20,095 bases of DNA. It comes from Vicinamibacteria bacterium (GTDB taxonomy: Bacteria; Acidobacteriota; Vicinamibacteria; Vicinamibacterales; UBA2999). Shown here piece by piece: positions 14,764 to 20,095 of the stretch; position 1 is the first letter of the stretch; each line of letters starts with the position of its first letter. Made by a program: the position numbers and the translations under genes. The DNA is taken from contig JAICQE010000068.1 of the NCBI GenBank assembly GCA_025938035.1, positions 1 to 20,095 of the forward strand, given 5' to 3'. The notes under the pieces are model-generated. The model worked only from the letters and a program-made list of their open reading frames with translations. It made no database searches and was not told the DNA's origin.

Positions 14764-14836
14764 AAGTGTCAAGTAACAAGTGTCAAGTAACAAGTAAGTT
14801 GACAAGTACTTGTCACCTGCCCCTTGTGACTTGCAA
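14764..14836. repeat. 14-bp tandem repeat and palindrome in a convergent gap
   Basis: Two exact tandem copies of AAGTGTCAAGTAAC (14764-14777 and 14778-14791) run into degenerate CAAGT units. They are followed by a perfect 16-bp palindrome TGACAAGTACTTGTCA at 14800-14815 and inverted CTTGTGACTTG words up to 14836. It lies between the stops of two convergent genes, so it may act as a bidirectional terminator or be an intergenic repeat element. Confidence 0.7.
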
Positions 14837-15170: not shown

Positions 15171-15944
15171 ATGCGAATCGCGGCGCTTTACGACATTCAC
15201 GCCAACCTGCCGGCGCTCGACGCGGTGCTCGCGGAGCTTCGCCGCGAGCACGTGGACGAGATCGTCGTCGGCGGCGACGTCCTGCCGGGTCCTATGCCCT
15301 GCGAAACGCTGGCACTGCTCTCGAGCCTGCAGGCGCCCGTGACGTTCATTCACGGCAACGGCGAATTGGCCGTGCTGGCGCAGATTGAGGCGGCCGATCC
15401 CTCGTCGGTCACCTATTGGGGAACCACGTCCGGCGATCCGCCGCCAGAGAGTGTGAAGGACACGTTCCGCTGGACCGCGGCGCAGATTTCATCAGGATGC
15501 GGTCCGCTGCCACGCTGGCCGAGGACGTATCGCCGGACCATCGACGGAATCGGAGAGGTGCTTTTCTGCCATGCGACCCCGCACAGCGAGACCGATTGTT
15601 TTACTCGACTGACCCGTGAAGACGCGCTGGCGCCTGTATTCAAGACCGTCGATGCCGCTCTGGTGGTATGCGGCCACACGCACATGCAATTCGATCGCGT
15701 CGTGGCGGGTGTGCGGGTCGTCAATGCCGGCAGCGTGGGAATGCCGTTCGGGAAGCCCGGCGCGGACTGGCTGATGCTCGGTCCCGATGTCGAGCTGCGG
15801 CACACCGACTACGACTTCGAAGAGACGGCGGCGCAGGTTCGAGCCACGACGTATCCGCAGGCGCGCGAGCTCGCAGAGTCGATCCTGCAGCCGCCTTCAG
15901 AGCAGGCGATGCTCGACGCCTTTACCGCGCTGTCGTTTCCATGA
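15171..15944 (+). CDS. Metallophosphoesterase (YfcE-like phosphodiesterase family)
   Basis: A 257-residue calcineurin-like phosphoesterase. Metal-site motifs in order: D8-I-H10 near the start, G-G-D36 in VVGGDVLPG, G-N63-G-E (in place of GNHE), H134 in LFCHATPHSE, and G-H169-T-H171 in CGHTHMQF. The usual His of the GNHE block is Gly here, so the transition-state His is not at that position. The family hydrolyses phosphodiesters or phosphomonoesters with two metal ions. The start ATG has no Shine-Dalgarno, and a long hairpin ends 2 nt before it. After its stop at 15944 comes a 9-bp repeat array. Confidence 0.88.
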   Translation: MRIAALYDIHANLPALDAVLAELRREHVDEIVVGGDVLPGPMPCETLALLSSLQAPVTFIHGNGELAVLAQIEAADPSSVTYWGTTSGDPPPESVKDTFRWTAAQISSGCGPLPRWPRTYRRTIDGIGEVLFCHATPHSETDCFTRLTREDALAPVFKTVDAALVVCGHTHMQFDRVVAGVRVVNAGSVGMPFGKPGADWLMLGPDVELRHTDYDFEETAAQVRATTYPQARELAESILQPPSEQAMLDAFTALSFP

Positions 15945-15955
15945 GCGCGGCTGGG

Positions 15956-15991
15956 TTGCCTAGGTTGCCTGGGTTGCCTGAGTTGCCTGGG
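15956..15991. repeat. 9-bp repeat array (TTGCCTGGG family), 4 units
   Basis: Four head-to-tail units TTGCCTAGG, TTGCCTGGG, TTGCCTGAG, TTGCCTGGG at 15956-15991, with a partial CTGGG just before. It fills the gap between the metallophosphoesterase stop (15944) and the convergent minus-strand gene end (16005). The unit is the same as at 17596, 17914 (reverse) and 19037. Confidence 0.85.
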
Positions 15992-16004
15992 TGAGCACCG
16001 ATGC

Positions 16005-17552
16005 TCAGCGCAGCTTGACCCGCTTGACACGCACCTCTGGTCCTGCGCCAGCGAAATAGTACAGATCGTCACCGGAGATCGTGGCTGCCATCGCGGCGCC
16101 GGCGTTCGGAGAGAACGTTTCAATCAGCGTTGCCGCCGAAACAGCCCGGCGATCGCCATTCAGCTGTAACTGGACGATGCCGCGCGATCCGTCGGACTGC
16201 ACCTGACTGCCGACAAGCGCGTCGCGATGCAAGCGGATGTAATCGAGATCCGTGAGCGCGATTCCGTTTCCCGCGGTCAGCGGCGATGAGCGGCGTGCCT
16301 GCAGATCGAGGCGGACGATGCCATCGCCGTGCGCCACGTACGCCCGCTGGCCACCCTCGTCTACGGCAAGGCTGATCGGATTCGGCGTCGTCAATCGCAT
16401 CAGGGGTTCGACGGCCGACGCGCCGGGCCGGAGAACGAGCACGCGCGGCGCAGCACTATCCAGGATGAACAGCGTGCCATCGCCAGTTACCGCCAGGTCG
16501 ATCAATCGCATCGAGCCTTGAACGGGGACGGCGAGCTTCGTCAGCGCCCGCCCGGAAATCAGCTGCAGCCGATGAACAGCGCCTGAGCTTCCGTCCGCGG
16601 CCGTGCTGGCAACCCAGAGATCGCCGCGCTTTGCGTCGATGGCGATTGCCGTGACCTCATCGAAGCCGGCAGAGTCCGCGCGGACCAGATCGACGGTCCG
16701 ATCTGACCCCTCGCCGACGACGAACAGCCGGCGTCCCGTGACATCGCCGAAGAGAAATCGCCGCGAGATCGCGTCGTAGGCGATGCCCGCCGGGGTGAAG
16801 GAGGCGGTCGAAAACCGCGCCGCGTGTTCGACGACCGCCGGCGTAAGCGGCGGCATTCGCCGCACAACAGCAGGCGGGGCCGCGACCGTCGCCGCACGAG
16901 GTGCCGGCGTTGCCGCGGGCGGCTTGTCGAGCGGAGCTGAGGTCGCAACGGGCGGAGGAGCGACAACCGCGGACGATAGGGTGGCCGACACAGAAGAACG
17001 CGGTGCCAGGCGCGGCACCGCAACCCGCGCGGCGGACCGGATCGGCTTTGACGGGAGCACGGCCGGAGCCAGCGCGGAAGAAGCTGGCGGGGGCGCCGCC
17101 GCGGCAGCAGGAGTGGGAGCCGGAGCTGGCGCCGTCGCCGCTGGAGTAGCCACCGCCGTTCGTGAACGGCTGGCAAGCGACGCGATGTACTGCCAGTCCG
17201 CCAGCTCGCGCACGCGGCGGAAGTCCTCGTCCGCGGTGTCGATGGCGAAGCCGGATTCAGCGAGCCGGCGAAGCATGACCACCGCGTCCCGCCGGCGGCC
17301 GCTGAGCGCCTGCGCTCGCGCCAGCAGGTACATCAGGTCGGGATCGTTCTGTCGGCCCGTCTGCACCGCACGCCATGCCAGGTCATGGAAAGCCTCGAAC
17401 GCGCCGCGCGCTCGAGCTTCCAACGCCAGCTCGCGGCATTCCTGCGCTTCGCGACATTCCGGTTGCGTGTTCTGCGCGGCAGCGCCGGTCACAAACACGG
17501 TCAGCAGTGCCAAAACGAAGCACAAATAGGATCGCGGGTCAGACGCCGCCAT
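16005..17552 (-). CDS. Secreted TPR plus beta-propeller protein with an Ala/Pro linker
   Basis: A 515-residue protein. A signal peptide ends near GAAAQ. Residues about 33-125 hold Cys residues (PECREAQEC) and TPR-like helices (ELALEARARGAFEAFHDLAWRAVQTG and YLLARAQALSGRRRDAVVMLRRLAESG). Residues about 130-235 are a low-complexity Ala/Pro/Val linker. The C-terminal half shows repeated beta-propeller-like strands, for example IAYDAISRRFLFGD, AIAIDAKRGDLWVAS, LAVTGDGTLFILD and LAVDEGGQRAYVAHGDG, as in NHL/SMP-30-type propellers. Probably a periplasmic or surface protein binding partners; no catalytic residues seen. CATAAT lies 6 nt before the ATG on this strand (plus 17559-17564), so the mRNA may be leaderless. 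Confidence 0.75.
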   Translation of the reverse strand: MAASDPRSYLCFVLALLTVFVTGAAAQNTQPECREAQECRELALEARARGAFEAFHDLAWRAVQTGRQNDPDLMYLLARAQALSGRRRDAVVMLRRLAESGFAIDTADEDFRRVRELADWQYIASLASRSRTAVATPAATAPAPAPTPAAAAAPPPASSALAPAVLPSKPIRSAARVAVPRLAPRSSVSATLSSAVVAPPPVATSAPLDKPPAATPAPRAATVAAPPAVVRRMPPLTPAVVEHAARFSTASFTPAGIAYDAISRRFLFGDVTGRRLFVVGEGSDRTVDLVRADSAGFDEVTAIAIDAKRGDLWVASTAADGSSGAVHRLQLISGRALTKLAVPVQGSMRLIDLAVTGDGTLFILDSAAPRVLVLRPGASAVEPLMRLTTPNPISLAVDEGGQRAYVAHGDGIVRLDLQARRSSPLTAGNGIALTDLDYIRLHRDALVGSQVQSDGSRGIVQLQLNGDRRAVSAATLIETFSPNAGAAMAATISGDDLYYFAGAGPEVRVKRVKLR

Positions 17553-17558
17553 TGATGC

Positions 17559-17564
17559 ATTATG
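17559..17564 (-). promoter_or_regulatory. Leaderless -10 candidate (CATAAT) for the TPR/propeller gene
   Basis: On the minus strand CATAAT, 5 of 6 to TATAAT, is separated from ATG 17552 by 6 nt. No Shine-Dalgarno exists in the gap. A transcript starting near the A of ATG fits a leaderless mRNA. Confidence 0.5.
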
Positions 17565-17595
17565 AAGTGCTTTCGAGCTGAGGTGTCGCGATGGG

Positions 17596-17613
17596 TTGCC
17601 TCGGTTGCCTGGG
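17596..17613. repeat. 9-bp repeat array, 2 units
   Basis: TTGCCTCGG at 17596-17604 and TTGCCTGGG at 17605-17613, in the same orientation as the array at 15956. It lies 44 nt upstream of the start codon of the minus-strand TPR/propeller gene. Confidence 0.8.
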
Positions 17614-17640
17614 AAAAGACTCGGGCCATGCCAGGAATCC

Positions 17641-17692
17641 GTAGACGGCGCACGGGCTTACACGAGCGTCTGAACTAACGTGCGCCGTCTAC
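17641..17692. repeat. Perfect 14-bp inverted repeat, 24-nt loop
   Basis: GTAGACGGCGCACG at 17641-17654 is the exact reverse complement of CGTGCGCCGTCTAC at 17679-17692. The 24-nt spacer shows no further symmetry. It lies about 90-140 nt upstream of the minus-strand gene at 17552 and could be a cruciform or protein-binding site, a terminator-like hairpin, or a trace of a mobile element. Confidence 0.75.
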
Positions 17693-17913
17693 TCTTCTAT
17701 GTCGCTACCGGCGTTGCTTTGGCGGCTGCGCTGACACACGCCGGCGTCTGTTGGCGGGTTTCGTCCGGTTACGCAGCAGGTCTCCGCTTCCTCAGTCGAA
17801 CCAATCGTATTCAAGCTGTTCTTCACAGGTACCGGACCCGAGCTGCCAGACGAGGAGCGCTTCAGCCGGGGCTGCCTCTGTTCCCACCTATCTCTTCGCT
17901 GACTTCGGCCTCA

Positions 17914-17953
17914 ACCCAGGCCACCCAGGCAACCCAGGCAACCCAGCCTACCC
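17914..17953. repeat. 9-bp repeat array, reverse orientation, overlapping the amidohydrolase stop
   Basis: Units ACCCAGGCC, ACCCAGGCA, ACCCAGGCA, ACCCAGCCT at 17914-17949, followed by ACCC. These are the complement of TTGCCTGGG, so this array points opposite to the other arrays. The TAG stop of the amidohydrolase (17948-17950 on the minus strand) lies inside its last units. Confidence 0.8.
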
Positions 17954-19021
17954 AATCCGCAGCAGGCGCATCAGGTTGCCGCCGAGAATCGCCGTCTTGT
18001 CCGCATCGCTGAGGAACGATGCCTTCAGTACGATATCGAGCGTCAGCGGCCAGTTGAACGGCACATCGGTGCCGTAGACGATTTGGCCCGCTCCCATCTC
18101 GGCGACGAGATGGCGCAGCCCCTCGTCGCTGAACACCATCGTGTCGGCGACGATGTGGCTGCGCAGGTACTCGCGTGGCCGCTTCGTATTGGCGCACTTG
18201 GCGTTCGGTCGAACATCGCATGCGACGTCGGTGCGGCCGAAGTACGATGGCAGATAGCCGCCGGCGTGTGCGGCGCCCACCTTCAGCTTCGGAAAGCGGT
18301 CGAACACGCCGTCGAAGATCAACCGCGAGAGGAAGTACGTCGTCTCCAGCGGATTGCCGATGATGTTGCCGAGATCACCGCGCCCGCCGAGCGCACCGTT
18401 GCGGATGATGTTCTCGGCGCCGTTCGGGTGCATGAAGACGATCTCGCCGAGCTCCGCTGCCTTCGCCCAGAACGGATCGAACCGCGGGTCCGACAGATCC
18501 TGCCCGTTGACGTGGCCGCCAATGGCCGCGCCGCGCAGGCCAAGCCGCTTGATGCCGTCCTCGATCTGGGCCGCCGCGAGATCCGGAAACTGAAGCGACG
18601 ATGACGCGAACGCGACGAATCGATCGGGATGCTGCTTGCACCAGGCGGCGAGGCCCTCGTTCTGTGCCCGGACGATCCGATCGGCCAGATCGCGGTCGGT
18701 GATCGTGTACCACCAGAATCCGTTGATGCTGAGCGCCTGGTAATCCACGCCCTGCTTGTCCATCGTGGCGATGCGCGCCGCGTTCAACAGCTGTCCCCCG
18801 ACGACGTTGCCGTTTGCCTCGAACGGCGTCCCCTTGACGACCGGTGGCACCGTGAGCACCCCGCAATGGGCGTGAATGTCGACGACCGGTACCCGGCGGC
18901 CGGCAATTGAGATCTGGCGCCGCGCCGAGCCCTGCGCCTGACCGAACACAGGCACGCGGGAACCGAGCACTCCTGCAGCCGCGCCGGCTACAGCCTGGAC
19001 GAACTCACGGCGATTTGGCAT
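17948..19021 (-). CDS. Tat-exported amidohydrolase (ACMSD-like family 2)
   Basis: A 357-residue protein. The N-terminus [17 protein letters not shown] is a twin-arginine (RR-x-F) signal followed by an Ala-rich hydrophobic core. The catalytic domain has DIHAHCG (first metal ligands), [20 protein letters not shown], and GTDVPFNWP (Asp of the metal site), which is the amidohydrolase-2/ACMSD layout. It likely hydrolyses or decarboxylates a small cyclic substrate in the periplasm. ATG 19021 is preferred over ATG 19030 because the RR motif is then near the start and a -10-like TAGAAT lies 7 nt upstream. An upstream extension would only translate the 9-bp repeat (QPRQPR). The stop lies inside another repeat array. 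Confidence 0.87.
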
Positions 19022-19028
19022 GGGGGAC

Positions 19029-19034
19029 ATTCTA
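19029..19034 (-). promoter_or_regulatory. Leaderless -10 candidate (TAGAAT) for the amidohydrolase
   Basis: On the minus strand TAGAAT lies 7 nt before ATG 19021, directly next to the 9-bp repeat array. It matches TATAAT at five of six. The region where a -35 would sit is repeat sequence (CAACCC), not a recognisable TTGACA. Confidence 0.45.
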
Positions 19035-19036
19035 GG

Positions 19037-19080
19037 TTGCCTGGGTTGGCTGGGTTGCCTAGGTTGCCTGGGTTGCAAGG
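19037..19080. repeat. 9-bp repeat array, 4-5 units, at the edge of a truncated gene
   Basis: TTGCCTGGG, TTGGCTGGG, TTGCCTAGG, TTGCCTGGG at 19037-19072, then TTGCAAGG. One side touches the promoter and start region of the amidohydrolase. The other side is the start of a protein-coding remnant of an ABM gene on the plus strand. Confidence 0.85.
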
Positions 19081-19273
19081 CGCTTCGCTCGAGCTTCAGA
19101 AGTGTGTTGAACGCTCGAACCGGTACGCGCCGCTCGTTCGCTGGTCCCGTCTCGAGGATCACACCGTCGGCTTCCGTCAATCCGCGGAGTACCAGCGGTG
19201 GAAACAGCTGCTGCACCATTTCTACGATCCCTTTCCCGACGTCGAACACTACACGCTCACAGTCCAACTTTGA
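19073..19273 (+). pseudogene. C-terminal remnant of an antibiotic-biosynthesis-monooxygenase (ABM) protein
   Basis: In frame after the repeat, the plus strand encodes about 66 residues: [19 protein letters not shown], then [20 protein letters not shown] and [13 protein letters not shown], ending in TVQL and TGA. This is the second half of the ABM dimeric alpha/beta-barrel domain (strand with LVRW, helix DHTVGFRQS, helix [13 protein letters not shown] strand), as in YgiN-type quinol monooxygenases. The first ~35 residues of the fold are absent and the 9-bp array stands where they should be. A TTG within the array could start translation, but the product would be half a domain. The stop overlaps the end of the minus-strand barrel gene by 17 nt. 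Confidence 0.7.
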
Positions 19274-19841
19274 ATCGCAGCACCGCTTCGAACAGCCCGT
19301 CGCCTTTAACGCCGGTGGACGGTCTTTTTACGTGGATCAATCCTCCAGGGAACGCGTGCGCGCCGATTTCGAAATTCAGCGTGGCCGAGTCGGACACCGG
19401 CACTTCGGCGCCCCCGTATACGTAGAACCCTGCCTTGATGGGTGTCTTTACGGTGTCATGCGTAAGCCAATAGACCCCTCCGCCGACACCGGCATAGGGA
19501 GAGACGATGTCGCCCGGCCTGCCGAGTCCCGCGACACTCACGGTCAGCCGTGAGATGCGGGCGTCGCCCGTAAAACGATACGACACCCGGCTCGCGCCAG
19601 CCGGCACACGAACCCCGCTGCGACCGGCTTCGATTCTCAACCGTGCCTCGTCCGTGAATGGAATCTCGACGGTGCCGGAGAGAAGCCGATTCGTCCGGCC
19701 GTTATTGATGTCGTAGTCGAGCGCCCCGAATGCCAGGCCGATCGATGGCCGCGGCTGCCATGGGCCGACGTAGGTGGTCTGCGCGTTTGCGGTTGCCGTC
19801 ATCACCGTGAGTACCCAACAGGCGAGAAGCATGGTTCGCAT
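19257..19841 (-). CDS. Outer-membrane beta-barrel-like secreted protein
   Basis: A 194-residue protein with a signal peptide ([18 protein letters not shown]). The mature part has alternating strands typical of small outer-membrane barrels: [59 protein letters not shown] and [12 protein letters not shown]. It ends with the aromatic/hydrophobic strand [14 protein letters not shown] 19841 is chosen because it starts the signal peptide; an upstream in-frame ATG at 19925 would place 28 residues before it. Function unknown. The C-terminal coding end overlaps the ABM remnant on the other strand. Confidence 0.65.
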
Positions 19842-19929
19842 GACGACACTCTGAGCCGATCGCCCGCGGCAAGTCCTGACGCAATCGCTGAAATGTTCTG
19901 AATGGGGTACGATTCGCGCGCCCATTCGC

Positions 19930-19935
19930 GAGGAG
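19930..19935 (+). promoter_or_regulatory. Shine-Dalgarno of the MBL-fold gene
   Basis: GAGGAG at 19930-19935 is 9 nt before ATG 19945. A TACGAT hexamer at 19908-19913 could be the -10, giving a leader of about 25 nt. This is the contrast case to the leaderless genes in the window. Confidence 0.5.
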
Positions 19936-19944
19936 CCGCTCTTT

Positions 19945-20095
19945 ATGAAAAGCCGCGCTGGCCTGGCCGTCGTGCTGTGTTTCGTCCTTCTTGGTTCATA
20001 CGTCTACGCCCAGTTCGGAACGAAGCCGTCCGCGCTGTCGACCATCAAGGTCCGCGACGATCTCTTCGTCGTCTACAACGATCTCGTCCCCGGCA
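19945..20095 (+). CDS. MBL-fold metallohydrolase with signal peptide, N-terminal part
   Basis: The gene runs off the right edge; 50 codons are visible. A signal peptide (GLAVVLCFVLLGSYVYA-Q) is followed by STIKVRDDLFVVYNDLVPG, a typical start of exported metallo-beta-lactamase-fold hydrolases in which the HxHxDH metal motif follows further on. The metal site is outside the window, so the call rests on the opening strand pattern as remembered from the family. ATG 19945 is supported by GAGGAG. Confidence 0.6.
   Translation, partial: MKSRAGLAVVLCFVLLGSYVYAQFGTKPSALSTIKVRDDLFVVYNDLVPG

Follow-up and report, generated by a model that had tools for sequence, protein, structure and literature searches.

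The STRR repeats of heterocystous cyanobacteria are short tandem units, heptamers, that are dispersed in spacers. Short tandem units scattered in spacers are also present in the DNA analysed here, a stretch of 20,095 bp from a member of the Vicinamibacteria (in the following the window), with a unit of 9 bp instead of a heptamer. The G-rich heptamer arrays of Xanthomonas and Nostoc, with the units GGGNATC and GGGGAYT, are described as short, single or in inverted pairs and mostly located in spacers, the G-rich strand being the non-coding one upstream of genes and the coding one just after stops (PMC4692102). The likeness lies in the G-run of each unit and in the strand rule near starts and stops, to which all four window arrays conform, while the differences are a unit of 8 or 9 bp, another sequence and another phylum; the unit in the window is CCTGGGTTG and thus neither GGGNATC nor GGGGAYT. 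The same source places the Xanthomonas and Nostoc repeats at stable loci, whereas here a broken gene lies on one side. The TAACTGA repeats of Beggiatoaceae, Cyanobacteria and Bacteroidetes, which in one genome are reported within several bases 5' of start codons (PMC4679880), are likewise short intergenic direct repeats but are heptamers of a different sequence from other phyla. The arrangement in the window is best filed as gene erosion beside an array that belongs to a known kind, dispersed and G-rich.

The window contains four arrays with the same unit, all within 3.1 kb (15950-19076). Array A (15950-15994, plus strand) starts 5 bases past the stop of a phosphoesterase gene (15171-15944), array B (17590-17613, plus strand) consists of two 9-bp units and lies 37 bases upstream of a gene on the minus strand (16005-17552), array C (17912-17954, G-rich strand minus) begins at the stop codon of an amidohydrolase gene, and array D (19031-19076, G-rich strand plus) is built from five 9-bp units; A, C and D all belong to the CCTGGGTTG family. 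By inspection, the orientation conforms to the strand rule in all four cases, with the G-rich strand being sense after a stop in A and C and antisense before a start in B and D. Matches to two units (up to three mismatches) occur 12 times in the window and in these four places, against a mean of 0.00 in 100 shuffles, and TRF recovered three of the four places. The window arrays show no remarkable RNA folding (z -1.3 to -1.8). Array D, on inspection, has no more than three GGG runs, and both the frame of 19020 and that of 19037 pass through it without a stop. We rejected the idea that the array is part of a larger dispersed element, as within 17500-20095 the array alone repeats, and also that it is a phage feature, as the viral match (L033) is a glycine-rich repeat within coding sequence, and L112 is a contig in which other short repeats abound. 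The region 17553-17911 holds no convincing gene and looks like the debris of a lost one: it has a start resembling that of a signal peptide (17680) and, in a different phase, a second open frame (17741-17899), and two frames tried from 17680-17911 gave no Pfam match. A 14-bp unit (AAGTGTCAAGTAAC) is repeated 2.3 times with no mismatch at 14764-14795.

Directly after array D the plus strand carries a 5'-truncated gene remnant of the ABM (PF03992) type at 19082-19273, which encodes the last 63 residues (36-98) of a 98-residue protein and has kept its stop codon. Using the 78-residue frame 19037-19273 as query, 1041 proteins were matched, the top hit being P0001 (98 residues, E 9.3e-35), so that the family assignment of the first-pass annotation is borne out; all comparisons with ABM homologues rest on the best 120 of the 1041 matches. 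P0001 is the closest intact homologue among the matches listed and equals the remnant in 60 of 62 aligned residues, with two changed, and over 72 residues its full-length sequence is 86% identical, showing homology to full-length ABM members. In the alignments with intact homologues the break falls at residue 36/37 of 98, with 'A' at 19082 and 'SLELQ' from 19085. The similarity starts 5 bases past the end of array D (gap 19077-19081, plus strand), and the sharp junction noted at first sight therefore holds. The description of the remnant as a C-terminal half was right as to the C-terminal part but not as to the amount, since about 63% of the protein remains and the first landmark given there, EDHTVGF, lies some 24 residues inside it; that the repeat units are in frame is true but uninformative, because any number of 9-bp units leaves the reading frame unchanged.

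Compared with the ABM family as described (for example PDB 3gz7), 62 residues can be aligned in the C-terminal part and the intact P0001 matches both 3gz7 and the Pfam profile (positions 1-77 of 78), whereas the window remnant is without residues 1-35/36, hence without a complete domain, and itself stays below Pfam detection (no match at E up to 10). P0043, a 66-residue homologue covering the same part as the remnant, does match ABM in Pfam. The missing N-terminal part was sought elsewhere in the window without a convincing match (best stray E 0.017), and its relocation within the window was rejected on this ground. We also rejected a natural short form, the case of short proteins that start at this point: an internal Met32 is used as start by 4 of the 120 listed homologues, and this codon too is gone from the window. 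An 18-residue remnant of an ABM C-terminus was seen in another genome of the class (G102; L042, 1501-1554), in a spacer that separates two genes.

On its 3' side the remnant meets the convergent gene of an outer-membrane beta-barrel protein (19257-19841, minus strand; PF13505 just below the cut-off), which shares 17 bp with the ABM end, stop against stop. This overlap restricts the C-terminus that an ABM protein can have, and according to a register rule that we derived from the genetic code, the C-termini of 7 of the 120 homologues listed (ranks 1-6 and 9) are compatible with an overlap on a barrel gene ending KVGL; these end TLT[VA][QRP]L, and ranks 7, 8 and 10-120 are incompatible. A second line is given by P0153, which consists of barrel residues 1-70 followed by an antisense reading of the ABM end, this part matching window positions 19273-19151 (85% over 41 residues, E 1e-19). 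More weakly, P0011 comprises the ABM protein from about residue 35 and has the tail NAIAEMF, one change away from the DAIAEMF encoded on the plus strand just upstream of the barrel gene; the alignment containing this tail reaches an E of only 0.98 and the contig of P0011 is 500 bp long. Judged from the C-terminal register, the P0153 join and, more weakly, P0011, the ABM and barrel genes are native neighbours, and the remnant lies at its native place because the downstream arrangement is shared with intact homologues. Deletions also seem to have hit this locus in other lineages, if P0153 and, when correctly read, P0011 are taken as examples. Among the 193 genomes of the class, the ABM search gave only the 18-residue match in G102 and one distant relative (G168) and the barrel search a single weak match (G151), and viral contigs yielded no confirmed relative of either gene. 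The contig sizes of ABM and barrel records coincided in 3 cases, where shifted lengths gave 0.9, and this was not taken as proof. Two other barrel proteins deserve mention: the C-terminus of P0143, LPKWPGWPG, is what the array CCTAAGTGGCCTGGGTGGCCTGGG would encode and so appears to be a translated 9-bp array of this kind, and P0144 diverges from its relatives after residue 95 and is perhaps another rearranged copy.

On the other side of array D, only 9 bases away, starts the amidohydrolase gene (17948-19021, minus strand; PF04909, E 3.7e-32), the stop codon of which lies within array C. The neighbouring start reported in the first-pass annotation agrees with our analysis, as relatives begin at the residue equivalent to 19021; a second in-frame ATG is located at 19030-19028. 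In 16 aligned sequences read by eye, several relatives show a GGAG-like stretch before the start (for example L005, L006, L009, L010, L012 and L014), where the window has the array. The proposal that the event created or moved the amidohydrolase promoter found no backing, with 0 sigma-70-like sites in 15900-19400 against a shuffle mean of 0.5, under a sigma-70 model that may not suit this phylum. We also compared 32 amidohydrolase loci (L001-L032), which are at most 67% identical to the window and hence distant. None of them has an ABM or barrel neighbour, and none of the other window genes tested (25 window frames less 3) has a match there either. Because this ABM and barrel neighbourhood is absent from the 32 loci, the amidohydrolase may have moved in. 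In the closest relative (L001, 3727-3825) an inverted 8-bp array forms a hairpin directly 3' of the stop with a fold z of -5.9; strong folding is seen in two hairpin arrays of relatives (z -5.4 and -5.9).

We searched 193 genomes of the class (that of G002) for such arrays. The CCTGGGTTG unit was not found with up to three mismatches over three units, the sole matches being 8 places in three genomes where the unit is CCTGGGGTG; the ribonucleotide reductase end of the window matches 178 of the 193 genomes, the eight best with 76-81% identity over nearly the whole query. A looser 9-bp pattern occurs in 10 of the 193 genomes at 242 places, compared with 7 in the reversed control, with G123 contributing 155 and G121 49 places and some of the rest (G052, G064, G186) having other units. 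The stricter 9-bp pattern is present in 5 of the 193 genomes (control 3 places), and the 8-bp family CNACCYAG in three, at 29 places against 1 in the control; with one base added between its units the latter pattern gave 0 of 30. Overlapping windows of one array are counted separately in these numbers, and they are lower bounds since a DNA search with one array locus (from the L061 comparison) revealed numerous additional weak matches to arrays in the same group. This kind of array is dispersed and lineage-restricted and normally located at gene edges. Among the papers listed by literature searches, none deals, judged by its title and the start of its abstract, with these arrays in this class. 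They represent an array kind in an under-studied bacterial class, in which related genomes place different units (CCTGGGTTG, CCTNNGGTG, CNACCYAG) at the same kind of site.

From 67 fetched loci (L034-L041 and L052-L110) we kept 33 distinct array places, the rest being overlapping copies, and called the surrounding open frames with a crude script that leaves out frames below 90 codons. Most of the arrays are found in spacers and at the edges of genes. Counted per array-gene relation and given without a null, the G-rich strand is antisense at 17 of 25 starts, antisense in all 11 cases inside frames and sense after 14 of 24 stops, positions and orientations that resemble the Xanthomonas and Nostoc pattern described in PMC4692102. 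The first-pass annotation had taken the array as such to mark a rearrangement point, which the relatives do not support. Among 20 array-bordering proteins, hand-picked from 18 of the 33 loci, 14 have a Pfam domain above the cut-off and none is cut on the array side, in a test that is biased to intact genes by the skipped short frames and that missed the broken neighbour in L084 that way. Gene order is kept in the alignable relatives at two of the three array loci compared. At L061 the flanking genes are contiguous in three of 13 genomes searched (G117, G120, G004) and the 108-bp array is extra spacer, and at L093 the site of the array is spanned by a single alignment in 10 of 16 genomes, with the exceptions that the flanks are about 5.9 kb apart in G140 and on different contigs in G149.

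The third locus, L084 (genome G147), is different. Here an inverted 8-bp array hairpin (1354-1546) separates the remaining fragments of an alpha/beta hydrolase gene from an SDR gene that is intact; the last fragment and the SDR gene are about 90 bp apart. Both pieces are on one contig in five of 24 genomes, at distances of about 630 (G149), 656 (G138), 706 (G137), 1375 (G145) and 1512 bp (G131), and G137, G138 and G149 have unbroken hydrolase frames of 264-288 residues (PF00561/PF12697). The remaining 19 of the 24 genomes lack such a hydrolase/SDR pair, and the content of this region is therefore variable in any case. L084 closely resembles the window: an intact gene has an array at its start, the G-rich strand being antisense, and the neighbour is clipped. 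In the relatives, arrays of this kind for the most part adjoin complete genes and do not mark a break, with one of three compared loci showing an array on an eroded gene as in the window.

We consider it probable that the 5'-truncated ABM remnant, which lies at its native place, is young and was left by a deletion in place. This deletion would have removed its first 35-36 codons and the start region; the left end would have come to lie at the 9-bp G-rich array D, in the spacer by the amidohydrolase start, and the remnant would have stayed tail to tail with the barrel gene. This is supported by the parallel case in G147 and by the remnant being only two of 62 residues away from P0001. One single deletion is the simplest reading, and we infer that array D and the deletion are linked. 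The case looks modest and mostly like ordinary gene erosion. Alternatively, an ordinary deletion may have broken the ABM gene before the array existed, and the array may then have grown in the non-coding space left beside the amidohydrolase start. The position of the arrays in spacers and at gene edges and the array at L061, which is extra spacer, would fit, but the hardly decayed remnant would leave little time for a new array, and we regard this order as rather unlikely. That the array-ABM join is an assembly artefact is highly improbable: short repeats are a common cause of false joints, but sequencing reads are usually longer than the 46 bp of array D, and P0159, encoded on a 3164-bp contig of probably another assembly, has the amidohydrolase of the window with the same MSPM start, which extends 9 bases towards array D.

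An unlikely explanation, with several observations on its side, is that recombination between arrays brought in the amidohydrolase as a unit bracketed by C and D, which are inverted, and that the ABM gene was thereby cut. C and D are 88% complementary over 41 nt and frame the gene from its stop codon to 9 bases before its start, an exact stretch of 29 bases is common to arrays A and D, their variant units following one another in the same order (reached by 3% of unit shuffles), and the amidohydrolase cluster has 50 members against 3 for the barrel. The gene is also free of the tested window neighbours in its 32 distant loci and stands in tandem with paralogues in L001 and L003. However, the ABM 5' part was not found on the far side of the unit, and the closest locus, L001, also has its array-like hairpin at the stop codon. 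Because a gene with an array at each end is compatible with the positions usual for this array type, a mobile amidohydrolase is kept as a rival to the in-place deletion, which we continue to prefer. More generally, gene-edge G-rich arrays might act as exchange points, at which recombination or template switching between copies would move or delete the DNA between gene edges, so that amidohydrolase-like genes would travel bracketed by arrays and their neighbours would be clipped, an idea that we regard as quite a long shot. The two junctions of an array with an eroded gene, in the window and in G147, are a place to ask if arrays promote deletion or are merely tolerated. Other repeats were seen along the way: L093 contains dispersed repeats of about 70 bp (1102-1173 and 2691-2770), which recur in several genomes of the group (G148; G001, G145, G133) and were matched on both strands at some of the same places, and in G148 a 9-bp array lies in frame within an EamA transporter gene (L056, 1501-1536).
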